Positions 46 to 63,366 of a DNA stretch of 64,000 bases are shown here, in pieces (the stretch's first letter is position 1; every line of letters starts with the position of its first letter). The notes under the pieces are model-generated. The model was given only the letters and a program-made list of their open reading frames with translations, made no database searches and was not told the DNA's origin. The stretch comes from Heterotrichella gracilis (lineage: Eukaryota > Sar > Xanthophyceae > Tribonematales > Xanthonemataceae). Both the position numbers and the translations under genes were made by a program. The stretch covers positions 1 through 64,000 of the forward strand of contig JAULBX010009438.1 of assembly GCA_032358255.1 (NCBI GenBank), given 5' to 3'.

Positions 46-3000
46 GACGCAGGCATCGCCTTTGACATGTTCTCAAACGATGGCGGCAACACCGTGGATG
101 CCCAGGGGTACAGCAATATGATCAATGCGCTGCAGAGCAGATCACCATACTTTGCACACATGCCGGTGCGCACGGGGCTGAAAGTGGGGTACGTCTCCCA
201 AACCCTAAACCCTAGATTATAAACCCTAAGAGTAGGTACGTCCCCCAACCCTGAACCCTAGATTCTAGACCTTGAAAGCAGGGCACGCCACTACCCTTTT
301 CCCACAGCCCGCCGCTAGTGTGCACATTTGATGGCCCGCTGCGTATGCACCACTGTGTAGGGACTGTGCTTAGTGTCAGCTTGTTAACTAGTACACACCA
401 GCTGGCACAGGGGGTCCTCTTGCTTCTGGCTAAACTCCCCTAGGCACGTGAATGCACAGGTGGTTCTCCTAGTCCTGGCTAGACTCTTCTAGGCACCTTG
501 TTACACTCCTTGGCAAGGCTTCAGATGGTGAACCAGCACGCCAGGCAGCGTTGTGGCAAGCAGTGTGTCTGGTTGACTGTCTGAAGCCCTCGCAAGGTGT
601 GTATTTACGCGCCTAGGAGAGGTTAGTCAGGACTAGGAGGACCATCAGTGCACAGCACGTGTCAGCTGGTGTGTGTACTGTGGGATTAGATGGTGTGCAG
701 GGGGGCGGGGTAGCGTCATCCAAAGCGCTGCACAGTAGGTGGCTCAAACCAGGGTTAGCCCTACAAGCGCCCCTCTCAAATTATTGTATTATTGTAATTA
801 TTTACAATAATGACAGTGTGCCAATATAGTTCTTATCTACAATAATGATAGTCATGCCATCTTCACGGTGAGTCCTGGCTAGACTCCCCCGCTAACTGGT
901 AAAGGAGGCACGTGAATACACATCTTGCAAGGGCTTCTAATAGTCCACCAGCGCGCCAGGCTGTGCTATGGCAAGGATTGTGTCTTTTGATGCGGCCTGA
1001 AGACCTTCAACATCCCGGTACTTGCCCTTCCACAGGAGCGTGAAGTCATTTTTGAACTGCTGGTGGTTCCAAACTGCTGGTGGTTTGAAACCGACTTCAA
1101 CCTCCTGTGGCAGCACAAGTATTGTGATGTCAAAGGTCTTTAGAGGGCATCAAAAGACGCCCTCCTTGCCATGCGACTGCCTAGCGCGCTGGTTGACTGT
1201 TTGAAGCCCTTGCCACATGTGTATTCACGTCCCTAGGAGGGTCTAGCCAGGGCTAGGAGAACCACATGTCCACTGCACGTGTCAGCTGGTGTGTGCTGTG
1301 GAAATGGATCCTGTGCAGAGGGGCGCGGCAGGCCAGGTTGCTCAAACCAGTGCTAGCCCCACATATTCCCCTTTCAAATGCCTGTTTTGTAATAATCATG
1401 TATGAAAAATGTACAAAGCGCCTCCAAAAGCCTTGTGAGCCCGGGTTGGCTCCCTGAATGTGCTCACAATATCTTAATACCCCTTGCCCTGGGTGGCTGT
1501 ACGGCCCATAAAGGTTTCTTGCAGATGCCCATTGTCAATAATTTGCCAGCAGCCCACGGCATCTCTGTTATGTATTTTAGGTTTAGGGGTGTGGTTCAGG
1601 GTTGTAGATTGAGGGTCAGGGATATGGCATATGCGCGCGCACCTCAACAGGTATGTGGTAGGTCGCACCTGTGCGCGCCCCTGGTGTCCAAGGTGGGGGG
1701 TGCCCATCAGTCGATGCTGCTGAGCAAGGCCTCCACAATGACCCCTGTGGAAGGGTTTTCACGCACAGGGGCTATTGTGCACGCCAGGCTTGACACCCTG
1801 GGCTGGGTGGTAACCCCCCACCCTGCCACCAATGGTGCGCGCATGTGCGTGCTACCCTATACCTGTTGAGGTGCGGATGCTCATATGGCACGCCAGGTGC
1901 GTGCTTCAATAGAAGTGCTTCAATGAAAGCCTTTTCAACAGGGTTTGTCAACAGGGTTTGTCAATCTGTCAATAGGGTTTGTCAGCAGGGTTTGTCAACA
2001 GGGTTTGTCGACAGGGTTTGTCAATTTGTCAATAGGGTTTGTCAACAGGGTTTGTCAGCTGCAGCATGGCCCCCACTCTCCTGCTCCGCTCTTCCCCGTT
2101 ACACCAATTCACCGTGGACTGGGGCGAGGCATATCCAGGGGTGCTAATTCCCCTCCCCTTGCCAAACCCCATCACCCACTACACATGGTCTAGCTGGCCT
2201 CTCGGGAGTCGGGCACAGGGCTGTGGTAGCCCATATCCACGGCGCGCTGCTGCTCCAAATGACAACCTTAATACAGCTGGAACCTGATACTTACTTACCT
2301 CCCCTTACCAGACGTCCCCAGGCTCAAACTGCTGCAACATACATGCTTTCCCCATTCAACCCCCACCCCCCCTCACCAGCCCACCACACCTGTCCTAGCT
2401 GGCGTGTATAGCCTTTGGGGAGTCAGACACAGGGTGTAGGGTTGCCCATGCTCAAAATGCAGCCATGAAAGCCGGAAACGCAGATACTTATTTGCTTCCT
2501 TTTATCAAATGTACCCAGCAGTGCAACCAGGCTCAAACCGCTGGAACGCACACACTTTCGCCGGCTTACCCACCACCCACCCACCCACCAACCCCAGGGC
2601 CAGCTACGAGTGAGGGCCTCGTGGCGCACCTGTTAGACTCTGACCATACTCGCCACATGCCCCTCCCCCGTTGCACCCCCACCCCTCCAACCTCGGCTGA
2701 AGCGTACTCAGCTCTCAATCGGGCTTGAAACCCCGGAGTGCACCAGCTTAACCCCACCGGCCACCCCCCAATCCTCCCAGGCCCAGCAGCGAGGGCCTGA
2801 TAGCACACCTGTATGGCTACGATCTCGGCCGGCGCATGCCCACCCCATTTTCGCCCACCCACCCGCCCACATACCCGCCCACCCACCCACCCTTGACTGA
2901 GATCCTCCCAGCTACTCAGAGGGCTTTAAACCCTAAATGCACCAGCTACTCAATGGGCTTTAAAAACCCTTGAATGCACCAGGTACCTCCCACCCCGCCC

Positions 3001-5015
3001 CCACCTACACCCGCGCTTCCCACAGGCCCAGCAGTGAAGGTTTGATGGCGCACCTGTTTGGCAACGATCGCAGCGGGCGCATGCCCGAGGCAAAGTTCAT
3101 GTCCACAATCCTGGCCATGCAGGAGGAGCTGGTGGCGCTGGAGTTTGCGTATTACGACTGGGACAAATCGGTGGGGGTTGGGGATTACGGGTTACGGTGT
3201 GCTGGGTATGACGAATCCTTGTACTACGGGACCAAATTAGTAGAAAAACCCGAGGTTGATGTGTGTGTATTACATTCGGGACACAAACAGTGTGCATTTG
3301 GGAAACCTAGGGTGACATCCTGTGACTGGGACCAAATCGGTAGGAAACAACTAGGGTAGGGTTGTGCACACTGCCGATGGTCAAGTCCCTAGAGTAGGAC
3401 CCGTCGCCTCCACCTCTACACCATTGGCTACATGCCCATCCCACCTCTACACATGACTCCATCCCTAGATTGAGCCCACACCACCCACAAACCCACCCAC
3501 CACCCCGCAGGGTGCCATTACCGGTCGTGACTATGCACACGTGATGCCTGCCTCAGCCGGTGCCGACGGATCCTAGCTGAACCCTAAAACCCTACACCCT
3601 ACACCCCGCAGGGCACCATCACGGGGCGGGACTATGCGCGCATGACGGTGGCCTCAGCCTTGCCAACAGATTTCTCGCTAAACCCTAAACCCTAAATCCT
3701 TCACTCCGCAGGGCACCATTACTGGGCGTGACAACGCACACATGATGGTTGCCTCAGCCGGTGCCGACTGATCCTAGCTAAACCCTAAACCCTACACCCC
3801 GCAGGGCACCATCACGGGGCGTGACTATGCGCACATGATGGTTGCCTCAGCTAGTGCCAAGGAGGTTGAGAAGTACCTCGACAGGGTGGACAACCTGCCA
3901 CCCGAGATGGCCAAGGCAGCAATAGGGGCGGAGCAGTTCAAGTACGGCCCTTCGTTTTTGTAATCTTCTGTGTACGAACAATGTATATTTCCCCTCCTTT
4001 GTCGCTTCCCTTGGGCTCTTTGACCCACTTTTACTGTTTTTGGAAGCACAGGAAGTCGGGGCTTCTGGTTTTTGTGGGTGCATCTCTGTATTATTATATG
4101 TATTTTTGCACCGCCTGTAACTGTTTCCTGGGGCTGTGACTCTGTGACTCCCTTTTGCTGTTATAGAGAGGGGGTGTTTGACCTCGCGTGTACCAACCTC
4201 CCCCTCCTGCCTGCAGGAATTTCAGCCGGATACGCGCCAAGCAGAACCTCAAGCCCCTCATGATTGCGCTGGAATTCCACCAAAATGTGAAAGGGGGGCT
4301 GTCCCGCCAGGATTTCAAGGGGGCCGTCAGCCGCGTGCTCAAGGTGGGTGGTGTTTAGGGTTTAGGGTTATTTTTAGGGGGGTGCATGGAATGGGAGTGT
4401 GCTCGAGGTGGGTGGGGCAGGGGAAGGTGGAGTGGGGACGGCGGCAGGGATAAGCTCATGTATTCAAAACGAGGACGTGGAGCTTGCATTTGTGCTATTC
4501 GGCCGACTGCAAAAACGACAACACTTGAAACCCTAGATGAACAAACCCTAATCCTCCTCCTGCCCTGCCCAGGTGACCCTGACCGACCAGGATGTTGACT
4601 TTGTGTATGCGCTATTCGACAGCAACGGGGATGGCACCCTGGACGCGGATGAGTTCATGCACATGATCCACCGGCGCACCAAGGTGCAGATGCAGAGGGA
4701 CAAGGTGGGTGGCAAAACAGGGTGTTTAGGGTTTAGGGTTTGGGCTTAGATACTGAAGTTTGTTGACCAGAGGTGCAGGTGCAGGTGCAGGTGGCAACTG
4801 CATCATAAGAGGTATGATGCTAGATAAAAAAATGATGAGCTGCTGTCCCTGCCACCCCCCTCCTCCCTTTCTACAAATAATAACACAACAGAATAAATAA
4901 TACAATGTTGAATAATACCGAATATCAACGAGCCCCCTCCCCCCTTCTCCCGTAGGACGGCAACCGCATCCCGCCCAAGCGCTGGGACTGCATCGCAGCA
5001 TGCATGGCCTCGTGA
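46..5015 (+). CDS. MICU1: MICU1-like mitochondrial calcium uptake regulator (5' partial)
   Basis: This EF-hand protein of the mitochondrial intermembrane space gates the calcium uniporter in its family. Visible exons are 46-188, 3026-3170, 3805-3941, 4217-4343, 4573-4704 and 4956-5015. They give 247 residues with phases that agree at every junction; the N-terminus lies outside the window. Family hallmarks in order are a degenerate first EF-hand (FDMFSNDGGNTVD), VRTGLKVG, the LEFAYYD segment, GTITGRDYAHMMVASA with the LDRVDNL helix, and a canonical second EF loop (DSNGDGTLDADE, 4613-4651). Acidic positions for Ca2+ binding are intact in the second loop but not obviously in the first. The 2.8 kb intron 189-3025 is packed with repeats, and two exons have decayed tandem copies upstream. 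MICU1 versus MICU2/3 cannot be settled from the part visible. Homology is clear by eye from conserved segments; function is inferred from the family. Confidence 0.9.
395..790. repeat. Foldback (MITE-like) repeat, unit 1
   Basis: The segment at about 395-545 reappears in inverted orientation at about 565-790. Shared blocks include ACACACCAGCTG, the CTAGTCCTGGCTAGA region, GGCACGTGAATGCAC and the CTTCAGA..G..CCAG.. block. Arms are imperfect, so this is an old inverted-repeat element. No target-site duplication was identified. Confidence 0.6.
866..1390. repeat. Foldback (MITE-like) repeat, unit 2
   Basis: This is a second copy of the same family. The left arm (866-960) resembles 460-560, and the right arm (about 1165-1390) resembles 565-790, including the shared block GCTCAAACCAG..TAGCCC. 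Units 1 and 2 are therefore tandem copies about 600 bp apart. Confidence 0.6.
1936..2058 (+). repeat. 13-bp minisatellite with 8-bp spacers
   Basis: About eight copies of a 13-mer (consensus AACAGGGTTTGTC) run through this stretch. Twice the array is interrupted by a truncated 8-mer (AATCTGTC, AATTTGTC). This gives a higher-order pattern of a few 13-mers followed by one 8-mer. Confidence 0.85.
2598..2842 (+). repeat. Two decayed copies of MICU exon 3026-3170 (5' part)
   Basis: Copies at 2598-2665 and 2781-2842 match the first 60-70 bases of the exon beginning at 3026. Both are preceded by a CAG acceptor and a C-rich tract like the true intron end. Indels and stops make both useless as coding exons: the first converts the conserved loop after MAHL to a stop. 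Confidence 0.8.
3511..3771 (+). repeat. Ladder of three decayed copies of MICU exon 3805-3941 (5' part)
   Basis: Copies begin at 3511, 3612 and 3712, then the true exon begins at 3805, so spacings are 101, 100 and 93 bp. Each copy has the intron end (ACCCC..GCAG, often with CCCTAAAC), a working-looking acceptor and about 45 exon bases encoding variants of GTITGRDYAHMMVASA. Copies one and three run into in-frame stops shortly after; copy two diverges. Confidence 0.9.
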
Positions 5016-6847: not shown

Positions 6848-9800
6848 ATGTCCGGCATGGATCTGGTGATGCTGAACGCCACCATCGATGAGCGCATCAA
6901 CGAGGTGGCTGGGTACGCACAGGCGGTGGAGGCGTGGCCGAGTCAGATCAACACCTTCTTCGTGCTAGTCAGTGGCTACATAGTCTTCGTCATGCAGGCT
7001 GGATTCTGCCTGGTAAGTTGGGCACAATGCCATGGACAGGTCTTTGCATACTTGTCGCCCTTGCCGTTGGAATACAACCCTGCAGGGCCCTAGGGCACTG
7101 ACTGTGTAACACGCTTGCAAGATGTAGTTCGAATTTCGTACCAGTAGCAAGCCAACCCCTTTCATCTCTTCCTCTTGCAGCTCACACTTTGGCTCTGTGC
7201 AAGTCAAGTGCATCCCTTTCTCTGCACCCTAAACCCTTCCATCCTTTTCCCCGCAGCTCAACGTTGGCTCAGTACCATTCACGTCCATCTCTTACCCTAA
7301 AACCTTAACATAAAACCTTCCATCCCTTCCCCGCAGCTCACCTTTGGGTCGTGCCAGTCACCTCCATCCATTACCCTAAAGCCTAAAGCCTAAGCCTTAA
7401 ACCCTTCCACCCCCTTCCCCCGCAGCTCACCGTGGGCTCAGTGCAAGTCAAGTCCGTGCGCAGCGTGTGCCTCAAGAACCTCATGGACGCATGCTTTGGA
7501 GGCATCGGCTTCTGGATCTTTGGATGGGCCTTTGCCTACGGTGATGCCCTGAACGAGGACGGGCTGGTGGTGCAAAACGGCTTCATCGGCAGCAGCCAGT
7601 TCCTGATGATTGGCCTGGACTCCTCGGTGTACTACGTGTGGTTCTTCCAGTGGGTGGTACGCATCACAACCCCTACTATACAATTACCGGTGTATAGGCT
7701 ATTATATGAATGCTTTTTGTTTGTTTGTTTGTTTGTCTGTGTAGTCTAATATTCAGAACCAGCTGGTTGTGCTCTTGCCTTCCATAAGGCCTCCCTCGCC
7801 GCTCTTGCCTCCCATAAAGGCACCACTGACCCTTGCCTGCATACGCCCATAAATCAAGTGCTGCATGCATTTTCAGCCACCATAATCCCTTCTCAGACCT
7901 CGTATCCCCTGTCCCTGGCAGTTTGCCATCTCCACGGCCACCATCGTGTCTGGAGCAGTTGCAGAGCGCACCCGCTTTGAGGCCTACGCCCTGTACGCAT
8001 TCTTCCTCACTGCCTGGGTGTACCCGCTGCTGGCGCACTGGGTGTGGAGCCCCGCAGGTACGCTGTGTGAAGGGTCGAGGCCTATGCCTGCGTTTAGGGT
8101 TTAGGGTTCTAGGGTTTTGGTTCTAGGGTTTAGGGTTCAGCCAATACATTGCTGTGCCGTCGCAGCAAGCACTTCTTCCCTGGCACTGTATGCACCACCT
8201 TTGGATCCTGCTTGCCTTGAGTTCCTGCTGGCTAAGGTCAGCCAATGTTGCCCTTGGCTTACCTACCCCCCCCCCCCCCGCTGACTTTGGCTTTCCTCCC
8301 CTTGCAGGCTGGGCATGCGCCTACCGCGCCCCCTCCGCCGGTGGCCTGCTGTTTGGCTCCGGAGCATATGACGCCGTGGGGTCAGGGGCTGTGCACATGA
8401 CCGGGGGACTGGCTGCGCTGGCTGGGGCCTGGGTGGTGGGGCCCCGCATGGGAAGATTTGACAGCAACGGAAAGGTACGGGTTTTTGACATTTTCTTGCC
8501 TGGGTTTGGCCGGTCGTGAAACCCTCGGATCCCAGCTGCCCACTGTATCCGCCCCACCGACTTGAATATTTCGTTTAAAAATAAGTTAAATCTGAACTAC
8601 TTCAATTCAATTTATTGAATTAAATCAATTCAAATGAAATTGAGTTTAATTTGCCCACTTCCTCACCCCCCCAGCCGCTCCACATGCCCGGCCACAACTC
8701 CGTCCTCTTCATCCTCGGCGTCTTCCTCCTGTGGTTCGGCTTCTACGGCTTCAATCCAGGCACAATGGCTATGGTCATCGTGCCCTCAGACGGCTCCGGG
8801 TTCATGAATGTGGTTACCCGCTGCGTGATCTCAACCACGATGGGCGCCATGTTTGGGGGCGTGGCGGGGCTGTGCCTGTACGCGGGGGTGAAGTGGGTGA
8901 CTGAGAAGAGGGTGGTGTACGATCTGAACCAGGCGGCCTGCGGGGCGCTGTGCGGCATGGTGGTCATCACCTCAGGTGGGTTTAGGGTATAGGGTTTTGG
9001 TGGTGGTGGTGGTGATTTTGCACTTCACGTTTGGTTGGCCTGTGACATGGATTGCAGTGGTATTGCGCATTATAAACCCCTTGCGGCACAGCGTGTGTCC
9101 TCGCCTCGGCTTTATGATCCTCTGCTTCCCTTGTGCCAGGCTGTGCCACCTACTAGCCTCCTGCCACCATGGTACCATTTGCTTCAGGGGATGATTCATG
9201 TCCTCCTCAGTTTTACTCACAAACCTTCCTCCCCCTGGCCCCAGGCTGCGCCACCTACTATCCCTACGCGGCAGCCATCGGCGGTGTGGTGGGGGGCCTG
9301 GTATATTACCCTTCCTCGTGGTTTGTGCTCAACGTAATGAAGGTGGGGACGCACTGAGCTATGCTGATTTCACACTGCATCTGTGTGTGTAAAATGACTC
9401 TCCATTATTACTTTTTTGAAAACTTCCTGTAAAGAAAAACTTCCTGTAAATACGAGCTAAATTAAATATGTTTTTTTTGTACATTACCAACTCGTTGAGT
9501 TTTACTAGGCAGTATTTCTGCTTGCATTTCACTCTCAATTTACAAATACCGTTCCCATTCAGGTGGACGACCCTGTGGACGCCTTTGTGGTGCACGGTGT
9601 GTGCGGCTTCCTGGGGGTGGTCTACATGGCACTCATGGCCAACGAGGACTTCACACACGCATACTACGGGGCCACCTATATGACACCGGATGGGGAGGAA
9701 AAGATCCGCCCCTGGGGCCTGTTCTATGGGGGGGGCGCCAGGGTGCTGGCTGCCAATTTGGTGTGGCTGGCCACCATCACTGGTGAGTGGGGTGGGGGCT

Positions 9801-10638
9801 TTCCTTGGGGAACACTGGATGCACATCCCACACTAGCCTGCGGTGGTACTGTCCCTCCATTACCAGATTTTGTATTTGGCCTGAGTGCCAGGGTGTAGTG
9901 CACGCTGTGGGATTTCAGCTGGGAACTCTACATACCTCTCCAGCTTGGCAGATTGTATGATGATTATTGCCCCCTGGCTCCCTTCTTCTGGGAGGCCGCC
10001 ACCTCCTCATTCCTAAGCCCTACATTCCAACCCTATGCAGGCTGGACCTTAGCCAACATGGTGCCCTTCTTCCTGCTGCTCAACAAGTTTGGCCTGCTGC
10101 GCATACCACCAGAGGAGGAGCAGGTCGGGTCAGATGTGTCACACCACGGTGAGTGCAGGCCAAACCCTAAACCCTAAATTAGGATTCGTGGGTTGATGTG
10201 GGGCTCCTATTCAGCCTGATTTGAAATACACACCCTGTAAACATGTGCACATTTTGCGGTCTGGCAGTGCATGCCTCCCGGGGAGCAGGATCACCTGACG
10301 CAATACACCCTGAACCCAAAACCCCCAAAAAACTTGAAACCCTTGCAGGTGGCTGCGCCGACATTGGCGACGGCGAGGCGGGTGCCCACGTGGACATTAC
10401 ACCCTGCACCCTACAATTCAAAAACCCTAAAACCCATAAAACCCTTGCAGGTGGCTGCGCATACATTGGCGACGGCGAGGCGGGTGCGCACGTGGACATC
10501 ACCAACAAGTCTGTTAACGACGTGCTCAAGGACTACAAGCCAGGCTACCAGGCGGCGCTGGGCAGCAAGGTGCAGGCACTGGAGGAGACGGTGGCGGGGC
10601 TGCAGAAGCAGCTGAGTGCTATGAACGCAGGCGTGTGA
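6848..10638 (+). CDS. AMT1: AMT1-type ammonium transporter
   Basis: This plasma-membrane channel for NH4+/NH3 belongs to the Amt/Mep/Rh family. Nine exons (6848-7012, 7426-7656, 7922-8057, 8308-8474, 8675-8975, 9245-9342, 9563-9782, 10041-10148, 10451-10638) give 537 residues with consistent phases. Visible signatures are FFQWVFAISTATIVSGAVAE, the GSGAVHMTGG signature with the first pore histidine (H207), and DAFVVHGVCGFLG with the second (H377). The C-terminal regulatory helix motif is present as SDVSHHGG. The residue equivalent to the inhibitory phospho-threonine of plant AMT1 appears to be S473. A short coiled coil ends the protein. The start is the first ATG in the frame; a second ATG lies three codons on. 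Exons 2, 6 and 9 and the 3' end have nearby decayed copies. The assignment is secure; expression control by nitrogen is likely for the family but not seen here. Confidence 0.95.
7181..7370 (+). repeat. Ladder of three decayed copies of AMT exon 2 start
   Basis: Copies begin at 7181, 7257 and 7337, before the true exon at 7426 (spacings 76, 80 and 89 bp). Each consists of a pyrimidine-rich intron end with a GCAG or TGCAG acceptor followed by about 30 bases resembling CTCACCGTGGGCTCAGTGCA. Divergence rises in the middle copies. Confidence 0.9.
9140..9160 (+). repeat. Decayed copy of AMT exon 6 start
   Basis: A CCAG acceptor followed by GCTGTGCCACCTACTA resembles the true exon start at 9245. 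A stop follows at once, so it is not a usable exon. Confidence 0.7.
10349..10411 (+). repeat. Open, in-frame copy of AMT exon 9 start
   Basis: The 5' part of the last exon (10451) is repeated 102 bp upstream with its TTGCAG acceptor, about 90% identical over 57 bases. The distance is 34 codons and the frame stays open between the copies, so use of this acceptor would add 34 residues to the C-terminal tail, including a second GDGEAGAHVDIT. Confidence 0.9.
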
Positions 10639-10782: not shown

Positions 10783-10840
10783 GACGACGGTGACGGGGCT
10801 GAAGAAGCAGCTGAGCGCTAGAACGCAGGCGTGTGAAGGG
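10783..10840 (+). repeat. Decayed copy of AMT 3' coding end in the 3' flank
   Basis: GACGGTGACGGGGCTGAAGA and the following bases, through AACGCAGGCGTGTGA, repeat the last codons and stop of the AMT gene (10587-10638) about 210 bp downstream. Confidence 0.85.
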
Positions 10841-17315: not shown

Positions 17316-17432
17316 GCGGGCTGTGCTGGAGCATGCTTTGGGCTTCAGCAGAGTAAACACTGAGGTCGTGTGGAGCAGGGTAATGCTTTGGGATTCAGCA
17401 GGGTAACACTAAGGGCGTGTGGAGCAGGGTAA

Positions 17433-17577
17433 TGCTGCCGCCCAACATGCACCCTCGACATCAGCCTGCTTGGGCTGGTGACGCCAGCAGCTGGGAGGGA
17501 GGGCTCTGAGGCCGCGCTTGCAAAGGATGGAGGCAGGTGGGACTTTTTAATGGCAAGAAACGGCCCTGCAGGCTAAG
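17433..17577 (+). repeat. Decayed copy of CASC3 last-exon end
   Basis: CTGCCGCCCAACATGCACCC through CCTGCAGGCTAAG resembles 17158-17316, with many substitutions and short deletions. It lies in the 3' flank, so it is a tail duplication rather than an intronic copy. Confidence 0.85.
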
Positions 17578-17629
17578 CATGCTGTGCTGGGTGCCCGTGT
17601 AGGTAGACAGATTAATGACAGTGATTGTA

Positions 17630-40011: not shown

Positions 40012-41374
40012 TGTGGCTTTCTGTGCCCGAATAGTATGGGAGACCACCGGATCTTTTTGTTGACAACAACTATTGAACAAGCGCAGGTTGACGTAACCTT
40101 GAAGCGTTAAAGTTAAACTGGGTGGTCTTCTTCCGCGCGGCATTGCCCATCCGATGAACTGTAACAGTGGAACTCAGCGTGCCCTAGTTTAGGGTTTGAC
40201 TCCACTATGCAGATCCACCTCCAAAGTTCCAATAACGCTAGGGAAGACTAGCTGAGCAGCTTGACGAGCTGAACAGCTTGACCAGCTAAGCAGCTTGGCT
40301 GAGCGAACCCCTTCACTGTAAGGTTTTCAGAATGCAAAAGTCGATGGGTTTCATGTAAGGAGTCAGCGTTGTACGTCGTTGAACATCGCGCACATCGAGT
40401 TAGGTCTTGTCCTGCAGTGTTGCAGCGTGCTTGTCAATGACAAAGACTTCCAGCTTTGAGTGAGCAACGATGACTGCACAGACAGGAAAGCCTTAATCTG
40501 TACTGCAAGCCAATGCAAGTCAGAGTATTGCCCACAACCCATTCAACCCAGTCCCCGTATTTGGATTGGTTTTTTCCAAATCAGACGAGGGCTGGCAACA
40601 AGTGTAGTTACAGATTTACTTCGCGTACGGCTAGTCTATGCACTCCATCTGTAAACCTTGCTTGGAACCCGCCCTCAACAAGTGGATCTGAAATGGGTAG
40701 TCCTATCAGTACCATGGCAGTGATCATGGAACTAAAACAGGGCCATCAAAATGCCCAGGTACATCAAAATGCATGTCACCATTTGACACTGTGGTATCGA
40801 CGTATAAATCATAGCCAACTGGGAAGGAAAATGTACATAATAGTGGAAGCAACATAATAAAACCAAGGTAAAAACAGCCTGCTGCAGCTCCGATGTCTCA
40901 CACAGCCAGCTGGGTAGCGAAATGCTTCATCACATTGGCAACTGTGACCAAGCAAACAGGTACTGCCCGAGTGTGTGTGAAGACATTGAAGTGTACCTGA
41001 ACACCCTCGACTGCCCTGTCTGGGGGAAGCAAGCCTAGAGGGCGTCCCCCACAGGCAAGGTGGCGCATAACTTTAGTGGTCCAAACGGCTAGCTTGGTCA
41101 AGACGACCAGGCGTGGGGCTTCACTGGCCGCCACTGAACTCGGCAAAATCACCTCCATATCTCAGGAACAAGGAGGACCTTGGAAATACAACCAAGGTAC
41201 CAGTAGGTGCCAAGTGGTGTCCAAGGCACCTACATGTCCAGGGGTAAGCCAAGGCGCCTACATGTACAGGTGTTTGTGCGGCACTGCTGGGTGGCAACCC
41301 ACCGCCCAAGAACCCGGCAACATCACCTCCAAATCCCAGGAAGGAGGAGGACCTTGAGGGTAAACCAAAGGCGC
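40012..41374. other. Intergenic region with 3'-end copies of the membrane-protein gene
   Basis: Near 40250-40310 there is a short AGCTTGAC/AGCAGCTTG repeat. From 41146 to 41370 the DNA consists of tandem pieces related to the end of the gene at 41375. The minus-strand open frame 40898-41158 could be a further exon but no consistent splice was found. Confidence 0.5.
41146..41374 (-). repeat. Tandem copies of the 3' end of the six-helix membrane gene
   Basis: GGCGCCTACATGTACAGGTG TTTGTG occurs at the true stop (41370-41395) and again at 41254-41279, with a shorter variant near 41226. A second block (ATCACCTCCA.AT..CAGGAA then AGGAGGACCTTG) occurs at 41147-41180 and 41323-41356. Confidence 0.85.
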
Positions 41375-48511: not shown

Positions 48512-50204
48512 TCATAATTCTATAATTCTATCATGTATAATGCACAGTGGATGCACCAGGGCCATGTGCACACGCACCCGCTTGACAGACACCCACAGCG
48601 ACTCCGAGGCTGGGTCGCTGCTTGCGTGGCGCGTGTGGCGGCAGCCGTCAAAGTGGCGGTTGTAGATGGTGGTGTGGTGTACGCGCCTGTTGCAGCAGGT
48701 CCAGCGCAGGCCGGTGCCGTTGAGCGTCCCGCCGCTGAACAGCACGCCGGAGTGGTACCTGCAAGCAGTCCTTTGATGGAAAATAAGGGAAAATGGAGAG
48801 AGAAAAATACAGTTCACAAGATTTTCACATTCCATTCGTGGTGCCCTGATGCAGTGGCCCCTTAACTCCGCCTCTGTGCATCCCCTTTCTTTCTTCCTTC
48901 CCGACAGTTACAGTTAGGTCTCAAGAGCCCGGTAGGGTGCATCAATCAGTCAGTGCTACAGACCCCAGGCAGTGTGGGTAGTGCACCTGCATGCGATGGG
49001 GTTTAGGGTTCAGGGTGCCGCACCTGCATGCGGTGGGTGTGTTGCGCCCATCCCTGAACTCCAGCTTGCATCGCCCGCACACGTGCACGCGCGCAAGCAC
49101 CCGATACACCCAAAGCTCCTGCAAGCGTGGAAATAATACATGAATTTATGAAAGCGCTCTCTGTTGTCCCCCTCTCACCCCCTCACCCAGGCTGCCACAA
49201 AAACGCAGGCGGGCCCGCCAATGCAATGCAGACCTGTTCCAGCCATCCCACACAGGAGCGCCAGTCTATTTGCTTTGTTTTCGCTTTTTCTTCTCCTCCA
49301 TCTGCACACTTTCTTCCCAGCGCCTGATTGCTTTGTGCAACCCCCCAAGCAAAGGATGAAAGGTCCAGGGTCAAACTCTGGGTCATACTCACAGGCTGTG
49401 CACATGCGCACCTCATCCCCGGGAGATGTCTCCATGGCCCCTGCCAGCGCCACTGCCAGCTGCCTGCATTCGCTGTTTGTCTCCATGTCCCGCTGGGCCA
49501 GCAGCGACCACAGGGAGGGGGCACGCGCAGCGCTGCGGAGGCGCTTGGCGCACCTGCGGGTGGGGGATGCGAGGTGGGTGTGTTAGGGGGTGCATGGGGA
49601 AGGGGGGGATAGTGGTGGCACCCACTGTGGAGGTTCCTGGAGCGCCTGCGGATGGGGGCTGGAGAGTGGGGTGGCGCTTGGATGTGGTAAGCCGGTGCAG
49701 GTGGTGGGAAGTGGAATGAGGATAGTATTATAGGGTGCGGGGGGACATAGGCAGGCCACGCGTGGCACTGGCTCAATTCAACTGTGGCAACCCTGTCCAT
49801 CTGTGCAGACAAACCTGTCCAAGGGTATTGGACACTCACTGCTGCAGGGTGCAGATGTCTGTCACTGGCAGGGCCAGCAGCACCTGGTGGAGGATATCAG
49901 GGGGCAGGTCGTGCAGCGCCACCCGGGCAGCTCCCCCAAGCGCAGCTGGTTCCGGCGGGGAGGGACAACCCGCAATCCCGTGCCCAACAGCGGTTTCTGA
50001 CAGGGAGCTGGACGCAGCTGGTTCCGGCGGGGAGGTGCAACCCATAGTTCCGTGTTCAATAGATGGCAAGTGCTTCTCTTCTATTTTTACAGCTGTTTCT
50101 GAAGGGGGTGGGCCACATGTCGCCTCGTCGTCAGCTGTTTCCATGGGATAAAAGCGGTTCGCCGTGGTGCGCACAGGCGTTGTTGAAGGGGAGGGGGCAT
50201 CCAT
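48512..50204 (-). CDS. F-box protein with Cys/His-rich C-terminal module
   Basis: F-box proteins link SCF ubiquitin ligases to targets through SKP1. Four exons (minus: 50204-49840, 49553-49412, 49118-49024, 48758-48512) give 282 residues in phase. An acidic, Pro-rich N-terminus contains a short duplication (GCTSPPEPAA / GCPSPPEPAA). The F-box spans about 97-145 (LHDLPPDILHQVLLALPVTD, then RLRSAARAPSLWSLL). The C-terminal half has regularly placed Cys and His: CGRCKLEF, TACRYHSG, LRWTCCNRR, then HHTT.YNRH.DGCRHTRH. This looks like a zinc-binding module of the CHORD kind (Cx2C, CRYHSG, WxCC). The exon 2 donor (GAG|GTGCGC) was chosen because the apparent GTGAGT nine bases on gives a stop. The target is unknown. 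The open frame continues upstream of 50204 but without an ATG. Confidence 0.75.
48984..48999 (-). repeat. Copy of F-box exon 3 donor junction
   Basis: GCACCTGCATGCGATGGG repeats the exon 3 end and donor at 49020-49038 (GCACCTGCATGCGGTGGG), 38 bp further into the intron. Short, so only moderately supported. Confidence 0.55.
49620..49672 (-). repeat. Decayed copy of F-box exon 2 start
   Basis: ACTGTGGAGGTTCCTGGAGC GCCTGCGGATGGGGGCTGG resembles the exon-acceptor junction at 49532-49573 (GCTGCGGAGGCGCTTGGCGC, then CTGCGGGTGGGGG), about 90 bp upstream in the transcript direction. Confidence 0.75.
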
Positions 50205-51148: not shown

Positions 51149-54100
51149 ATGGCATCCACTCCAACCCACGGGTTCTACTTCAACAAGTGGTACTCGTTCG
51201 TGGCGTGCGCGTTCGTGCAATGCGCGGTGTCTGGCCTGTGCTACACCTTCAGCATATACTCCACTGACGTGAAGGAAGCCCTAGGGTATACCCAGGCACA
51301 GCTGCAGGGTATGGCTGCCCCCCTGCTTAACCCCAACTACCTGGCGTTCGTGCCGGGGCTGCTGTACGATGCGCTCAAGGGGAGGCACCTGGCCCCAAGG
51401 TAAGCCTCAGAAGGCAAAGTTCTTTGTGCGCTACATACATGCATGTGGCGGGGGCCTAGGTTCAATACCCCAGTTGAAGCCCACACTCCACCAACCCTCC
51501 CATTCCACCCATGCCCCCTTAAATCCCTCTGAACAACTACTACAGGCTAAGGCTGTACTGGCTGTAGGAACACTGCTCACCAATGCAAGGAATTGTTGGC
51601 TGTAGCTCCCTACAGCTTCGCAGCTGATGCAGACCTATGCACGCATGTAGCTGTCACAGCCTTAGCTGGTTCCCAGTGGTTCACCCTTTACCTCCCCACA
51701 CACACCTCACCAGCCCCTCTCTCCCTTGTCTACCAGGCTGTGCGTGGCGATAGGCACCCTCCTCACCAGCGCCAGCAACTTTGGGCTGTGGCTGGTGGCC
51801 ACCAAGCGCCTGGTGCTGTCCTACCACCAGGTGGTGGCGGTGTGCATGGCCTCCACAGCAGGACTCATTTTCACCGACACCGCGTGCATCGTCACAAGCG
51901 TGCGCAACTTCCCAAACGAGCGGGGGACGGTGGTGGGTGCGTGCGCAAACCCTACAACAACCCTCTTGCCCAGCTGTGTTTCTTGCAACCAGTGTGCACA
52001 ATTTCTCGGCGATGGTGGGCACGTTCGGAAACCCTTACAGCGGGATGCAGAACCCCACAGCTATATGCAAAATTTTTGCAGCCAGGTGCAAGCATACCTG
52101 CTGCACAGCTGCGTGGCCAGTGAGGGCGACTTCTCAGCGTGCGAGGGATTGTGGTGGGTGCATGGCGCAAATCCTAAGCCTTAAACCATACCGGAGGCTG
52201 CACAGCTGGCAGGCAATGGTTGGCGCCTGCTGCGGCTCTGATACTGTCAAGCCATCACAATCACATTCTTTCACCACAACCCCACCCACCTGCGCACAAT
52301 GCAGCCCCATGCAGTCCGCATCTGCAACCAGGTCGCCTGCATCCCTTCCCGAGAATGCATTTTGATGTGAGCGTGTTGGGGGTGGTGATGTAGTCAATCT
52401 GGTTGCAGGTGCGGCTCCTTGGGGCCGCATTGTGCACAAATGGGTGGGGGTATGCTGAAACATTGTGTTTGTAGCAACTAAAGGGTGTCCATTGCAGAGC
52501 TGAGCAGGCGCAAGTCATGTGCTGTATGCAATATGATTCAATGCTCCTAAAGTGAAATTCAATCTAAACAGAGTTCAACCTGTGCTTGTTTTTAAAGTAT
52601 GTTGGGCCACATACCAGCTGGTATGCAATGGTAGTTTTGCATTGTGTCGGTGTGGAGCAGATCCATTGTGAATCTCAATGTGCACGCTCAAGTTGGCCAC
52701 AATGCATTGTGGTTGTGAAGCAACTTTCTGTTTCGCCTGTAGGTGTGATGAAAGCCTTCCTTGGCCTGTCTGTCAGGGTATGCATCCGCATATACTCAGC
52801 ACCATTCCAGTTCAGGGGCGCAGGTATTCCTGCCCTTTCTGTACTCTACCCTCTCACAGTACAGCACTCCACCAATTGACAAGACGCTGAATGCTACAGC
52901 ATGACACCAAACTAAACCACCGTGACCAACCCTTGACCGCAGGCGTGATGAAAGCCTTTCTGGGCCTCTCAGCCAGCGTGTGCATCAGCATCTACTCAGC
53001 GCTCTTCCAACCAAGGGCCCTGGATTTCCTGCTGTTTCTGTCCATTGCCCCCCTGGCGGTAGGCCTCCCCGCCCTGGTTTTCATAAACCAGGTCCCCTTC
53101 GTGCAGCGGTGTGAGTGGGAGGGGGGCAAGGGGGCGTACACAACAGGTGGGGGGTGGGGGTGGGGAAGGGGAGGAGGAGTGTGGCAAGTGGATGGAGGGC
53201 CAAGGGGGCGTACACAATGTGGGGGGTGGTCCACAGGGTCTTGCTTCCTCTCATGTTACACAATCACTCATCATGGTCTGGCCTGCATGTACCTTTGGCT
53301 GTAAGCGTGTGGTGTGCAGGGCAGCGTGTGGTGTGAAAGGTTCGGGTGTTTGCCCTTCCCGCAAGCTTTCCGCAAGGGTCTTGCCCTTCCCTGGTTGCCC
53401 CGCGTTCCATTCTTGCCCCCCACACCCACCCCCCGCAACCCTACAGGGTCCCGCTTCCTCTCAGCCTACACAATCATCTCCCTCCTGGCACTGAATGTGA
53501 CCCTGCATGCGGTGCTGGGGACAGCCATGGGGATCCCGAAAACCCTCCACCAGGCTTTCCTGGGGGTGACCCTGGTGCTGCTGGGGGGGCTGGTGGTGGT
53601 GCCGGTGGGGTCTGGGGGGGTGGCGGCTGTCAAGGCGGTGGTGGAGGTGGATGCGGAGGTGGCTGGGGAGGGTGGTGGTGAGGGGATCAGGTGCGTATGC
53701 GTGTGTATGTGTCAGTTTTGATTCTTGGATGTGGGGATATACCAGTTTAGTATGGGCGCAGGAAGTAGGGTTTAGGGTTTTAAGGCTAGGGTTACATGCT
53801 GCATGCTGCACCACAGCCTCCATGTGACCTATCCTGCACCACCTGTTTCACCTACCACACGGTGTGTCCACACCATGCCCGTGCACGAATCAAACCATCC
53901 CACCAGCCACCGACCCCCCTCCCCCCTTCCTGCACCACAGCACCCTCCAGGAGCCCCTCCTCACCCCCGCCCCACTCCTCCCGCCCCCTGCCCCCACCAC
54001 CGCCACCACCGCCACCCCACCACCACCCCACCACCGCAAGCTGCACCGGTCCCGAACAGTCCAGCTGGCGCTCAGCGGCATGCCGGACATGAGCCTCCCG

Positions 54101-56409
54101 CAGTGCCTGCAGGCAGTGGAGTGGTGGCTGCTGTTTTTTGTCTTTGGCGCGGGCACGGGCTGCAGCATCATGTTCGCCAACAACCTGGGTGAGTTGGTGG
54201 TGGTGGGTGGATGAGTGGGTGGGAGCAAAAATCCTACGTCCGGCATCCTCCCTATCCCAATACCCATCATTCATTGTTTTCAATCCATGGGCTGCAGCAC
54301 CATGTTTGCCAAAAACCTGGGTGCGTGGGGTGTGGGGGTGTGGTGGGAGCAAAGAGAAGCCCCTGCCATCTCGCCTCCCAATTTAGCCATGCAAGATCTC
54401 GATGAGGGACGCGCTGCCGCTTGAATGTGTACAGGTTTCTGCAGTCCATGTCAACTTATAATCCACGTATGATCCACAACCCCCATGGTGTGCATGCCAT
54501 TTTTTCCCAGTCCCCACCATGCATTTATAATCCCCCGCAGGTCAACTATCGCAATCCCTGGGAGGCGCGCATGACGGCCAGGACGTGTATGTGTGCCTCC
54601 TATCGGTGTCAAGTGCACTGGGGAGGCTGGCGATGGGGTGGGGCCCCGAGAGGGCGCTGCATGCCAGGGGCACCCCCAGGTGGGCATGGGAACTGGGAAT
54701 AGGGATGGCGGGAATTGGGGACTTGTGGGACCGGCTAGTAATCCACATCCCCTTTTGGGGTAGGAGGGGACTGGTGTGTGGGACAGGTAAATCACCATTA
54801 CAAAGGGTGCGGTGATCCTCAAGTAGAGTTGGGGTTTGGGGTGTGTGCAGGGCGCACAAAGCATGGTGACACCTCTGTAAATTAAGGAAAAGAAATGGGA
54901 TCCCCTTCCTCCTTTTCACAGCCTGCCTGAAAGGTGCCAGCCATCGATTCATTGCATTGATCGCAATTTAAATCGTGTTTAATGACCAATAATCACCTCC
55001 AAATACCCACAATCACCACTACCCACTAGTCACCTCCAAACCTACAATGTTATCCCGCAGGTCCCCCTTCCTCTTGCTCACCTCTTGCCTCCAATTGCTT
55101 TCTGATCACCTCCGATCACTATCCAATCACCCACGATCACCGCTGATCACCTCTGATCACCCCTTCTCTCGCAGGTCCCTCTTCCTCCTGCTCACCGCCT
55201 GCCTCACAGCCACCAATCAGCTCCTACTAGCGTTCGCCAAGCTGCCCGCCCTCTACCCTTGCGCCCTACTAGCCGGGGCCACCCTAGGTAAGGGCACATG
55301 AGGGAATGTCCAGCATTTGTACTTGTAAAACACCATTCTCTGCAATGTCCCTGTCTTCTTACTCGGTTGCCAATTGTGACACCCGCAAGTGTTTTCGTAT
55401 CGTTTTGTCTGCACACCCCAAGGGTTTTTGTCTTGCTGGTACCCACACGGGCCTCGGAGCTGTTTGGCCTCACGCACGCCCGCGTTCTGTACTTATTGAA
55501 CAATTCAAGCAAGTTATTTTTTGGTGGGCCCTCCCAGGCTTCCATTTCTCCCTGGTCCCCACCCTGGCCTCGGAGCTGTTTGGCCTCACGCACTACGGGA
55601 GCAACTATGGGAGCCTGTGCATGGCGCCCACCTCCCTTGTCTTCCTCATGAGCACTCAGCTGGCAGCCAGGCTGTACACGTGGGTGGGCAAGGGGCATGG
55701 GGATCCCCGCGGGGTGTGCCTGGGACCCGACTGCTTCAGGTACGACCCCGCAATGTGAAAAATCAGGGGGTTGGATTCAATTGCGTTGGGGTCAATTTAC
55801 AAAAGAAATGGAATCGAATTACCATCAGTATTTTAAACCCATACGACAGGCTGCTTCAGGTGCATCCCGGGGGTTGACATCGGCATTTGGATGTGTGTGG
55901 TGACGGAAGCATCGACGTCGAGTGTAAAGCAACACATGGTGCATTCCTGGTGTTCCACATGGCTGCACATGACAGTAACCCCCCGTTCACCCGATTTGCG
56001 GGTACAACATTCTGGTGCTGGCGGGGGTGAGGCTGGCTGCGTCTGGTGCAGTACCAAACCACACACGCATCCCCTGCACCGCACAGAACGAGGTTTTACT
56101 AGGGCACTGGCTGCCATTTACCTGCCATGGCGCCCAAAATAAATAAATAAATAAACAAATACTGCTTTGGCGCCCAAAACCCACAGGACAATGAACCCCC
56201 CCGTTTGTGAACGGTGAAACTGATTTGCTTTGGTATGCAGGTACACCTTTCTGGTCCTGGCGGGTGTGGAGGTGGCTGCCGCGGGTGCAGCGCTGGTGCT
56301 GTACCGCCGGACGCGCGCCCTGTACCGCACCGAGTACCGCCAGCTGCACAGATATGAGCAGGCAGTGGAGCACAGAGCGCAAGAGGGGGAGGCGGGGGGG
56401 GCACAATGA
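51149..56409 (+). CDS. Nodulin-like major facilitator superfamily transporter
   Basis: Multi-pass membrane carrier of the plant nodulin-like MFS group (NFD4-like); the substrate is unknown. Nine exons (51149-51399, 51737-51936, 52943-53110, 53447-53690, 53941-54188, 54541-54679, 55175-55287, 55538-55739, 56241-56409) give 577 residues, all phases agreeing. Hallmarks are FYFNKWYSFVACAFVQ and FSIYSTDVKEALGYTQAQL at the N-terminus, FPNERGTVVGVMKAFLGLSA, a central cytosolic loop with EPLLTP and a poly-Pro/Thr stretch, CSIMFANNLGQLSQSLG, LSALGRLAMG-like helix, ASELFGLTHYGSNYG and the conserved CLGPDCF near the end. The 1 kb intron 51937-52942 and most others contain decayed exon copies. The length and order of motifs match complete family members. 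Confidence 0.92.
51543..51605 (+). repeat. Decayed copy of MFS exon 2 start
   Basis: CAGGCTAAGGCTGTACTGGC through GAACACTGCTCACCAATGCA resembles the exon start at 51737 (CTGTGCGTGGCGATAGGCAC, CTCCTCACCAGCGCC), 190 bp upstream. Confidence 0.7.
52740..52830 (+). repeat. Copy of MFS exon 3 start
   Basis: TAGGTGTGATGAAAGCCTTC CTTGGCCTGTCTGTC..ATCCGCATATACTCAGC resembles the exon at 52943 for about 80 bases. The true acceptor CAG has become TAG|G in the copy, which is still a legal AG. Confidence 0.9.
54280..54335 (+). repeat. Copy of MFS exon 5 end and donor
   Basis: GGGCTGCAGCACCATGTTTG CCAAAAACCTGGGTGCGTGG repeats 54156-54195, keeping a GT after CTGG. A second usable donor about 130 bp downstream of the true one is therefore possible. 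Confidence 0.85.
55049..55103 (+). repeat. Copy of MFS exon 7 start with intact acceptor
   Basis: ATCCCGCAGGTCCCCCTTCC TCTTGCTCACCTCTTGCCTC resembles the exon start at 55175. It is followed by tandem GATCACC-rich repeats (55100-55165). Confidence 0.85.
55442..55486 (+). repeat. Copy of MFS exon 8 internal part
   Basis: CCCACACGGGCCTCGGAGCT GTTTGGCCTCACGCAC resembles 55558-55594, about 116 bp upstream. This copy lies inside the exon-start region but lacks its own acceptor. Confidence 0.8.
55995..56100 (+). repeat. Copy of MFS exon 9 start
   Basis: GCGGGTACAACATTCTGGTG CTGGCGGGGGTGAGGCTGGC through CACCGCACAGAACGAGG resembles 56237-56340, with deletions. It lies about 240 bp upstream of the true exon; a related piece follows the gene at 56636-56735. 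Confidence 0.8.
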
Positions 56410-56534
56410 ACAAGCGTTTGCTGTGCAGTGCTGCAACGCCAGTTGTTTAGGGTTTAGGGTGGCATGCAGTACGTGCCCATGCATGCCATAGTGTGCGGGG
56501 TACGCATGTGGCACAGGATCTGTCGCGCATAGTA

Positions 56535-56735
56535 TTGCCAGGTGGACAGCTTCAAGCAGGCAATGGAGCACACAGCACAGGAGGATGGGGAGGGGTCTGT
56601 GGGGTTATAGAACCCACATGCACATCTGCTGTGTATAGGTACACAGCACTTTCTTGGTCGTCACGGTGCGGGGTGGGGTGTGGCGGGTACTGCATGCATG
56701 CAGTGGAGCAGGTGCTGTATCGCCCCATGGAGTGA
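56535..56735 (+). repeat. Two copies of MFS last-exon parts in the 3' flank
   Basis: 56540-56608 (AAGCAGGCAATGGAGCACAC AGCACAGGAGGATGGGGAGG) resembles the coding end near 56350-56400. 56636-56735 resembles the exon 9 start, with TAGGTACAC followed by TTTCTTGGTC. Confidence 0.75.
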
Positions 56736-58012: not shown

Positions 58013-58152
58013 GTGTGAAATCTGATTGGCACAATAGGTTGGTTGATTGATTATGTGCCTGGCCAGATTGATTCATCGATTGCAATTGATAAATCAATCT
58101 GGCCAGCCAGCAAACCAATCAACCAACCAAATGTCCCAATCAGATTTGACAC
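58013..58152. repeat. 60 bp inverted repeat with 18 bp loop
   Basis: The left arm 58013-58073 begins GTGTGAAATCTGATTGG. The right arm 58092-58152 ends CCAATCAGATTTGACAC and is its reverse complement over about 60 bp with a few mismatches. Blocks GGTTGGTTGATTG and GGCCAGATTGATT pair with their complements. A foldback element or MITE remnant is likely. Confidence 0.9.
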
Positions 58153-62160: not shown

Positions 62161-63366
62161 GGGTTATTGGGAATGGCCCCCGGAATGGCCCCTCAGAAGC
62201 CCCAACGGGCGGAACGTTGCAAACGTACAGCCGTGTTCCTTATCCACTGAAGTTGAACTGTATTAGTTGTCCAGTTTATGGAAAATACAGTTCGCTGCAT
62301 TGTTGCAATAGAGTGTCCACCGGCCTGTCTCCCGGGAAGGCTCTTCAAGACCCCACACCCTAACTTAGGGTTAACCTGGCAGGTTAACCCAATGCCCCGG
62401 GTGGACGGCAAGATCTTGGCAATGAAAAGCTGACTGTGGTGGATTGCAAACGGATGACCAGGGCTGGAGCATAGGCTGGTAACTTGCTTACACTTAATTC
62501 TCGGAGGTATGCCTGGCAGCTGAACCAACGTGTCACACAAGTATAAATTGTCTTCTCAAAACACAATGCACTCCCGTTGGCCACAATTGGACTTGTAAAA
62601 CTTGATGTACAGCACACCCACTGGTGACGCTGGAGAGCATATGACTTTCAAGCACTGTGGTGGTTCCAGCACCGTGTGTATCATCTGAATAGTCCCTGGT
62701 ATACACCCAGTATAAAACTCCAACTCTGGACAGTGGGGTAGTGCAGGCAGCCAGTGCGCACCCTAAACCCTATACTCTTTATGACATACGCTTTGCGGCT
62801 CCCAATGGCTGGGCCTAGGTGCAGAACCGACTCAGGCGCCCACTGTGCACTGTGGTTGTGCCCTCCGTGGCCCCAAACCCCTTTCAATCGCTGTTCTATC
62901 AACCCCAGCTTAGTGATCGCTCTAGGAACTGCTCGCCAAGCTCCTCCCACTGCTCTCAAATATTGTACAACCCCATCAAATGCGGTCTGCACTTGATGGT
63001 ACAAACCCCAGCTGGCGCGTGTCCTGCAGCAGCGCCTCGGTGAAGAAACCCCCAGAGATTGCCCCCCCACAGAATGACGCTCTTTTGGGAGCACGAGGTG
63101 GCGCCTGCGCTCTGCAGCACCTACTCCCCTTCCCCTGTCACTAACCCCTTGACGGTCATGTCACAATTGCGCGCCCGATGTATGGCTGCAGCCTCAGCTG
63201 GCGCGTGTCCTGCAGCAGCGTCTTGATGAAGAAGCCCGTCTCCTCGGGGTTTGCCACCTAGCAGTAGCTCCACATACGCGTGTGCGCTCTGCAGCACCTG
63301 CAGCTCCCCTCATCCAGCCACCACTTTGGCCTGGTGATCACAGTCCAACCCAGCCGCCCCCCTCAC
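62161..63366. other. Region with no supported gene, copies of a downstream exon
   Basis: This stretch probably holds introns or flank of the minus-strand genes. Decayed copies of the exon at 63367-63524 lie at about 63005-63060 and 63175-63262. Minus-strand open frame 62681-63094 has no recognisable feature. Confidence 0.5.
63005..63262 (-). repeat. Two decayed copies of exon 63367-63524
   Basis: CAGCTGGCGCGTGTCCTGCA GCAGCG is present at 63010-63035, 63197-63222 and in the true exon at 63389-63414. The copy at 63175-63262 extends over about 85 bases (GATGTATGGCTGCAGCC through CTCCTCGGGGTTTGCCACC) and breaks where the third base of a codon becomes a stop. Confidence 0.9.

Follow-up and report, generated by a model that had tools for sequence, protein, structure and literature searches.

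How do short, decayed copies of exon ends come to lie in introns, beside the exons from which they were drawn? The question is raised by the first 64,000 nucleotides of contig C96 (C96:1-64000, here called the window) in an algal assembly of 68.5 Mb and 903 contigs. A preliminary description of the window had reported such copies. This exon-edge copying is real, it extends beyond the window, and it spares most introns. Its source is probably, though by no means certainly, a supply of short tandem duplications (mostly 60-250 bp), more frequent in some contigs than in others, that arose when staggered breaks were repaired in an error-prone way.

The window was compared with 20 other 10-kb stretches of the assembly, which together with it make 264 kb. 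One of these, L003, comes from contig C1 (894 kb; L003 is 20001-30000), which has a GC content of 0.357, long open frames and no predicted introns, and which probably belongs to a bacterium or is otherwise non-nuclear. L003 stands inside the 200 kb of the first self-BLAST count, where it gave zero pairs; it was excluded from the non-redundant and later counts, which cover 254 kb (the window and 19 stretches). Stretches L023-L026 were used solely to compare density within contigs and gene structure between rich and poor stretches. A gene finder trained on these data predicted 442 exons in the 264 kb, 400 of them scoring above 4. Intron counts omit the 42 of 442 predicted exons that score 4 or less, as well as introns shorter than 35 or longer than 1500 bp. 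This is, of course, a single assembly, and its gene models are predictions.

Extent of the copying

Each stretch was searched against itself by local BLAST (soft dust, offsets of 20-1500 bp, pairs of at least 40 bits). This search delivered 42 direct repeat pairs in the window and 108 in the 20 other stretches. The identical search of three shuffles of the 264 kb delivered none. Removing redundancy leaves 36 pairs in the window and 88 in the 19 stretches, or 124 in 254 kb, with a median offset of 142 bp. Predicted exons are touched, by at least 12 bp, in 96 of the 124; another 21 pairs are internal to introns and 7 lie in other non-coding sequence. For the window alone, 28 of 36 pairs touch an exon and 8 do not (3 labelled intron-internal, 5 other non-coding). 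Identities over the 124 pairs run from about 68 to 98%; the preliminary description spoke of divergence from near identity to barely recognisable. Its count of more than 30 copies in 64 kb is plausible as well, given 36 pairs, and more if each copy in the arrays at 2709-3086, 3483-3858 and 7154-7455 is counted separately.

A second screen, patterned on a published avian one, set 400 exons against 345 introns and retained hits above 35 bits; shuffled introns peaked at 34.6 bits. Here, 79 hits joined an exon to an adjacent intron (38 on the donor side, 41 on the acceptor side), and 8 were non-adjacent, all within the same locus as the exon. Copies of an adjacent exon were found in 57 of 345 introns overall and in 15 of 81 in the window. 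At the avian cut-off of 42.1 bits, 45 of 345 introns carry a copy, while a local duplication of any kind overlaps 88 of 345. Thus, the copies first described do exist, but they are not found in most introns. Adjacent hits are direct rather than inverted by 79 to 1, and 48 of 60 exon/intron combinations hold a single copy. Inverted local repeats of any kind number 18 pairs, 13 of them palindromes; the pair at 1109/1545 of L011 overlaps a predicted exon.

One might suspect an artefact of assembly or collapse, as all the sequence comes from one assembly. The copies, however, have diverged by about 2-32%, with codon positions 1 and 2 changing more slowly than position 3, and at least one pair is present in 13 of the 19 other nuclear stretches. 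An artefact is therefore scarcely credible; the copies are too diverged for an assembly fault, which upholds the earlier view that the process is an ongoing one. Introner-like mobile introns, or retro-copies, might likewise be proposed, as telomere-like sequence (discussed below) recurs across many introns. Yet the copies are local, with 79 adjacent hits against 8 others, and each resembles its own exon. Moreover, no exon-derived match between different loci was found, the introns not having been fully intercompared. A mobile source is very improbable.

The copies in the window

The anatomy first described for the copies is also what the window displays. Upstream copies hold an intron end, its AG and an exon start (as at 7154-7360, for the exon at 7426). 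Downstream copies hold an exon end and a donor, which may be damaged (19379-19417) or intact (27961-28000). Last exons leave copies in the 3' flank (10786-10836 and 17431-17590). The copies, with percent identity where given, are as follows.

2709..3086 (+): EF-hand gene region, upstream copy 2709-2841 of 2943-3086, intron tail and exon start, 73% over 145 bp
3483..3858 (+): array of about 3-4 copies, period about 98, of intron tail and exon head; real exon 3805-3941; AAACCCTAAACCCTA between copies (from TRF and pairs)
7154..7455 (+): ammonium transporter, stacked upstream copies of acceptor and start of exon 7426-7656, period about 77-80
10301..10502 (+): ammonium transporter, last intron; 10301-10400 copies 10395-10502 (acceptor of last exon, 10451), 81% over 108 bp
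10786..10836 (+): 3'-flank copy of last exon end 10587-10638, 92%
17431..17590 (+): 3'-flank copy of coding end and flank 17156-17329, 70% over 174 bp
19379..19417 (+): disulfide-isomerase gene, donor-side copy of 19308-19346, GT now AA; 32-bp filler with CTAAACCCTAAAC, 95%
21367..21426 (+): donor-side copy of 21209-21266, 88%
22041..22116 (+): donor-side copy of 21911-21991, 78%
22419..22802 (+): pair 22419-22510 (exon) and 22716-22802 (partly called exon by the finder), 75% over 93 bp
27473..27539 (+): acceptor-side copy of exon 27653-27719, CCTAAACCCTAAACCC between copy and exon, 87%
27961..28000 (+): donor-side copy of 27899-27938, donor intact, 95%
28515..28571 (+): acceptor-side copy of 28657-28714, 83%
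29271..29596 (+): pair 29271-29413 and 29457-29596 across a donor, 84% over 143 bp
30986..31040 (+): acceptor-side copy of exon 31137-31191, 78%
36446..36562 (-): minus-strand gene, acceptor-side copy of 36336-36449, 79% over 118 bp
36911..36985 (-): copy of exon 36751-36825, 72%
41242..41284 (-): copy of 41358-41401 (exon end and donor-like GT), 91%
49941..50062 (-): in-exon tandem pair 49941/50013, offset 72, 82% over 50 bp
52741..52842 (+): acceptor-side copy of 52941-53041, 77% over 102 bp
53187..53217 (+): donor-side copy of exon end 53114-53143, 87%; 35.6 bits, below the 40-bit list
53233..53266 (+): acceptor-side copy of 53443-53476, 85%, 40 bits
54286..54353 (+): donor-side copy of 54154-54229, 78%
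55050..55091 (+): acceptor-side copy of 55164-55205, 86%
55436..55477 (+): acceptor-side copy of exon 55552-55593, 93%
55997..56051 (+): acceptor-side copy of 56236-56290, 80%
56531..56595 (+): downstream copy of exon end 56333-56397, 75%
63006..63450 (strand not assigned): three related copies at 63006, 63176-63258 and 63368-63450, beside a weakly predicted exon in an uncertain gene model, 90-95%

All seven window proteins submitted to Pfam, as finder models or after correction by hand, match families, among them a disulfide isomerase (thioredoxin domains), a Rab-like GTPase and a nodulin-like transporter. The ammonium transporter gene matches PF00909 over positions 2-399 of 399, that is, over the full profile. 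Its model is complete without any copied edge, which argues that the copies are surplus. The large gene at 24-35 kb may encode an isoleucyl-tRNA synthetase.

Chlorophyll a/b-binding matches number 43 in the genome. A CP26 exon reaches 308 bits with the structure entries that it matches best, presumably green-algal photosystems, and about 134 bits or less with another group, presumably land-plant CP26. From these chlorophyll a/b-binding and CP26 matches, the window is taken to be nuclear DNA of a chlorophyte green alga.

Other repeats also occur in the window. Between two genes, 17925-18038 holds a 37-bp unit three times at 97%, the top identity among window pairs. Off the exon edges, 25670-26406 holds about three copies of a 239-bp non-coding unit (73%). 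The related tandem segments 58928-59801 and 60820-61776 (77% over 643 bp and 70% over 270 bp), 1.9 kb apart, exceed the exon-edge events in size. Imperfect palindromes of about 100-330 bp, possibly fold-back elements, lie at 906-1234, 1625-1890, 28139-28339, 52257-52472 and 58013-58152, and elsewhere at L005 9483-9761 and L006 6657-6755.

Is duplication directed to the junctions?

In 64 of 79 copies, the source lies within 5 nt of the facing exon border, against 10% under uniform placement in the exon. The preliminary description proposed a duplication that starts or ends at exon-intron junctions. The duplicated units, however, span the junction and extend well to either side of it; in 48 pairs, the real junction lies within the aligned stretch.

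Much of the apparent focus comes from geometry, the loss of duplications that change the mRNA, and the slower decay of exon-derived sequence. The median intron is about 280 bp and the median unit (in the test described next) about 105 bp, so that events spanning a junction are common by geometry alone. When the outer junction is the one spliced, a duplication across a single junction does not alter the mRNA, whereas one inside an exon does. Only one window pair lies wholly in an exon (49941/50013), and its offset is divisible by 3.

These effects can be set aside in part. In a masked test, exons were masked and events detected from intron sequence alone, which removes the effect of slow exon decay. 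The expectation came from random tandem duplication with an mRNA-neutral filter, using the lengths of introns within 3 kb. Of the 41 events so detected, 25 cross a junction, where the expectation is 17.4 (P 0.008). If 20 rather than 30 intron bases are required, the figures are 25 and 18.4 (P 0.020); a recount of four hand-picked array events brings the spanning number to 29 of 41 (P below 0.001). At identities of at least 80%, the numbers are 17 of 28 against 12.1 (P 0.034). At identities of at least 85%, they are 11 of 19 against 7.9 (P 0.09), with P 0.12 when the background is introns within 1.5 kb and 7.1 expected (P 0.043) when it is all introns of the locus. The window alone gives 4 of 7 against 4.0. 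Sources do lie near borders, and much of that focus is expected. The modest junction excess on top of it may be real; a duplication that starts or ends at junctions is not needed to account for the copies and is not supported.

Should that excess be more than residue, duplication might be directed to junctions by co-transcriptional splicing, by R-loops or by the step in GC content between exons (0.619) and introns (0.516), and such direction could coexist with joining by break repair. The 25 spanning events (29 with the array events) speak for it, as do the P of 0.043 with all introns of the locus and the clustering of telomere-like arrays within 60 bp of junctions. Yet the signal is weak for young copies (P 0.09 at 3 kb) and absent in the window, and the units reach well past the junction on both sides. 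Further, the intron sequence close to the splice site of the real copy is under constraint, so that events are more readily detected exactly there. Junction-directed duplication is, on this balance, unlikely.

Decay of the copied splice sites

Forty-eight pairs combine a copy that holds the real junction with one that has no coding sequence at all. Among the acceptor copies, 21 of 23 still have AG; among the donor copies, 18 of 25 still have GT. Many false splice sites are thus left in place, in agreement with the preliminary description. As a control, dinucleotides at codon positions 1-2 of the same pairs are kept at 0.81 (P 0.29 for AG, 0.30 for GT). Identity at codon positions 1 and 2 is 0.892 in acceptor pairs and 0.898 in donor pairs; at position 3 it is 0.805 and 0.833, respectively.

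Selection acting on the false splice sites was considered, as AG is intact in 21 of 23 against 15.9 expected from mixed flanks; the difference is not significant against codon positions 1-2, and this candidate was set aside. Within the power of 48 pairs, the splice dinucleotides of the copies look neutral in their decay, with false sites neither purged nor kept.

Telomere-like arrays between the copies

Some of the joints between copies hold telomere-like repeats. Pure TTTAGGG arrays begin at bases 4-7 of six contigs. In the CCCTAAA orientation, arrays stand at the starts of C70, C140, C526, C609, C717 and C770, and near the start of C712; these probably mark chromosome ends in the assembly. 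TTTAGGG is described as the ancestral green-algal telomere (PMC8226300). The interior arrays are built of this TTTAGGG too, the telomere repeat of the species itself. In the whole genome, the exact 18-mer AAACCCTAAACCCTAAAC is present 2076 times; its reversed control is absent.

Telomere-unit arrays are present in 84 of 345 introns, against 2-6 in five shuffles, and they keep company with the duplications: 48 of 88 introns with a duplication have one, against 36 of 257 without (P 6e-13). By 10-kb block, arrays and duplications correlate with a Spearman coefficient of 0.62 over 25 blocks. Arrays reach 11.65/kb (6 of 15 places) in short fillers, 10-60 bp long, whose flanking copies are at least 84% identical; units have 2.95/kb, flanks 2.14/kb and other introns 0.56/kb. 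Arrays between copies thus stand at about 20 times the intron background, in few cases. The binomial P values are 0.032 against units, 0.0095 against flanks and 9e-7 against other introns, on small counts. When copies of at least 70% identity are admitted, 10 of 31 places hold an array (P 0.0032 against units, 0.0018 against flanks).

Telomere-unit arrays also lie near exon edges at these places in the window:

4353-4369
4724-4741
8092-8137
10162-10178
20496-20515

Near donors, the arrays occur in both orientations, and near acceptors almost solely as CCCTAAA. Among 280 introns of at least 180 bp, CCCTAAA is found in 19 within 0-30 bp of the acceptor and in 7 at 30-60 bp, against 1 and 0 for TTTAGGG. 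The arrays were considered as splice signals, but this bias fits avoidance of AG upstream of an acceptor, where TTTAGGG would supply one. CCCTAAA might also serve as a branch site.

Arrays that accompany duplications need not, of course, be their product. They could be pre-existing fragile or G-quadruplex sites that stall replication, with the duplications as the consequence. The association by intron and by block is what such sites would give, and the avian authors list replication stress linked to G-quadruplexes as one possibility (PMC12954441). But arrays are commoner in short fillers than in units or flanks, as is expected of an insert, and many duplications have no array nearby. The fragile-site explanation is accordingly a doubtful one.

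Regional density

Density differs between the contigs sampled and tends to repeat within them. In four contigs, picked as rich or poor from their first stretch and having no chromosome assignment, pairs per 10 kb in the two stretches are 21 and 18 (C75), 11 and 6 (C15), 0 and 1 (C30), and 0 and 0 (C70). Gene structure and codon usage fail to separate rich from poor stretches clearly: codon usage correlates at r 0.984, 4-mer composition at r 0.963, median introns are 294 and 277 bp, and splice-site base fractions differ by up to 0.14.

Two simple causes were considered. A mixed culture of two algae is not supported by the similarity in codon usage and introns just cited, though the 4-mer and splice-site figures leave it some probability. 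Subtelomeric location was rejected on the evidence of one contig, C70, which starts with a telomere and has its 0 and 0 pairs at 20-30 and 60-70 kb.

Recurrence of density within a contig would also suit meiotic unequal exchange or gene conversion, expanding small seeds in the manner of a minisatellite, and multi-copy arrays do exist (3483-3858; L008 6022-6467). The prevalence of single copies (48 of 60 combinations) is against it, however, and many pairs have a filler with no second copy, which is beyond unequal exchange alone. Such exchange seems a rather improbable source.

Probable repair of staggered breaks

Repair of staggered breaks remains the probable origin. From the tandem orientation, unit sizes, filler composition, near-neutral decay and regional density observed, we infer a break, a fill-in enzyme and, at times, a telomerase, in this order. 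A gene would be opened by nicks on opposite strands, separated by tens to hundreds of bases, or else by a break that leaves 3' overhangs. Fill-in of both overhangs, followed by joining, would produce a duplication in head-to-tail order, and TTTAGGG would sometimes be added by telomerase or from a telomeric template, to remain as filler between the copies. Duplications within exons are nearly absent, and those that lie in introns or span one junction survive, with the mRNA unchanged; the surplus copy would then turn into intron and decay neutrally. Exon-derived halves, as the identities suggest, would diverge from their source more slowly, and old events would come to resemble pure exon-edge copies.

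Young events have the plain form. The units of the head-to-tail pairs at L007 9058/9143 and L013 1654/1756 are about as long as their offsets (85 and 102). Among 15 filler-free pairs of at least 78% identity, the ends overlap by 2-7 bp in 5, by 14-20 in 2 and by more than 30 bp in 7, the last as is seen where an array has over two copies; the remaining pair falls short by 2 bp.

Both enzymatic parts have precedents. Fill-in by CST-Pol alpha-primase produces small tandem duplications at breaks with 3' overhangs in mouse and human cells (PMC8355091), and staggered breaks that receive a telomeric insertion can end up with a duplicated flank (PMC7215372). Together, the two would yield a duplication with a telomeric joint. 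It is a tentative and rather unlikely extension that telomere end-processing (TTTAGGG addition by telomerase, fill-in by CST-Pol alpha), acting on interior breaks of certain chromosomes, writes telomere-jointed exon-edge duplications into introns, and that region-specific stuttering of this kind (see below) is convergent in algae and birds.

Several observations weigh against repair of staggered breaks. The junction excess left in the masked test (25-29 of 41 against 17.4) lies beyond a uniform process. The gene finder fuses neighbouring genes, so that some "introns" are intergenic (for example, near 17925). No telomere units are found in 9 of the 15 short-filler places, and when fillers up to 150 bp are admitted the enrichment weakens, to 3.38/kb (8 of 34 places), with units at 1.97 and flanks at 1.00. 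Away from detectable duplications, arrays still cluster within 60 bp of junctions (34, or 1.04/kb, against 17, or 0.29/kb). These may be scars whose copies have decayed, or they may have an independent preference for junctions. Arrays and duplications may, then, share a preference for exon edges, or the arrays may be fragile sites rather than scars.

Relation to known systems

The preliminary description held that no such copying at exon boundaries was known. This is now out of date. "Sequence stuttering", published in February 2026, was found on avian dot chromosomes, the smallest that birds have, and its exon-edge form, "exon stuttering", displays the same pattern (PMC12954441). Its authors present the phenomenon as new, found in birds, with gerbil genes mentioned as data not shown and the mechanism left open; length polymorphism is one of three features that they name.

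In both systems, the intron next to an exon holds imperfect tandem copies of a lateral part of that exon, donor or acceptor included; the copies are local, their blocks measure tens to hundreds of bases, and the coding sequence is intact (PMC12954441). Dependence on region is strong in birds (PMC12954441); in the alga, density differs between the contigs sampled. Stuttering of intronic, non-exon sequence occurs too; its algal counterparts are the pairs off exons counted above (21 and 7 of 124). Sources lie within 1 base of the exon border in more than 90% of avian cases (PMC12954441), and within 5 nt in 64 of 79 algal ones. At 42.1 bits, 13% of the algal introns (45 of 345) are affected, with no review by hand, against 3.4% on avian dot chromosomes, which were reviewed by hand (PMC12954441). 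Copies per event are 1 in 48 of 60 algal combinations, against a median of 4 in chicken (PMC12954441). The alga differs also in its telomere-type filler at some joints, and it belongs to a very distant lineage. It is thus a probable member of the same class, working like exon stuttering, as a distinctive variant. Two features look new: the TTTAGGG arrays between copies and the density that repeats within contigs. No report of exon-edge copying in algae was found in literature on stuttering, algae, telomere-like repeats and partial exon copies, as judged from titles and abstract openings in a collection with few subscription papers.

The duplications made by fill-in at staggered breaks (PMC8355091) are similarly head-to-tail, with some short end overlaps and almost no inverted copies; the algal cases, however, are evolutionary products only, with filler that is sometimes telomeric and units often above 100 bp. 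Interstitial telomeric insertions are likewise short interior arrays of the unit that forms the telomeres of the species, and in some cases the flank is directly duplicated. In the horse, though, loci with duplication alone are 3 of 66 (PMC7215372), whereas algal arrays and duplications are strongly associated and the arrays lie near exon edges. In intron gain by tandem duplication (Gao and Lynch 2009, as cited), the duplicate also crosses an intron-exon boundary; that known example is a single case that creates an intron, while the alga has more than 100 pairs in 254 kb, mostly enlarging introns that already exist.

Paired-nick work in plants is reportedly related as well, with small tandem duplications arising from staggered breaks.

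What the copies offer

The many intact duplicate splice sites make this genome a natural test of how splicing copes with them, and its duplications a natural test of intron growth. The telomere-like repeats found at some of the joints hint, in few cases, at repair of broken DNA. Stuttering has so far been a matter of birds and of a remark on gerbils with data not shown, its mechanism left open (PMC12954441). A microalga with a small genome, dense events, both rich and poor contigs, and telomeric filler at some joints would make that question experimentally tractable.

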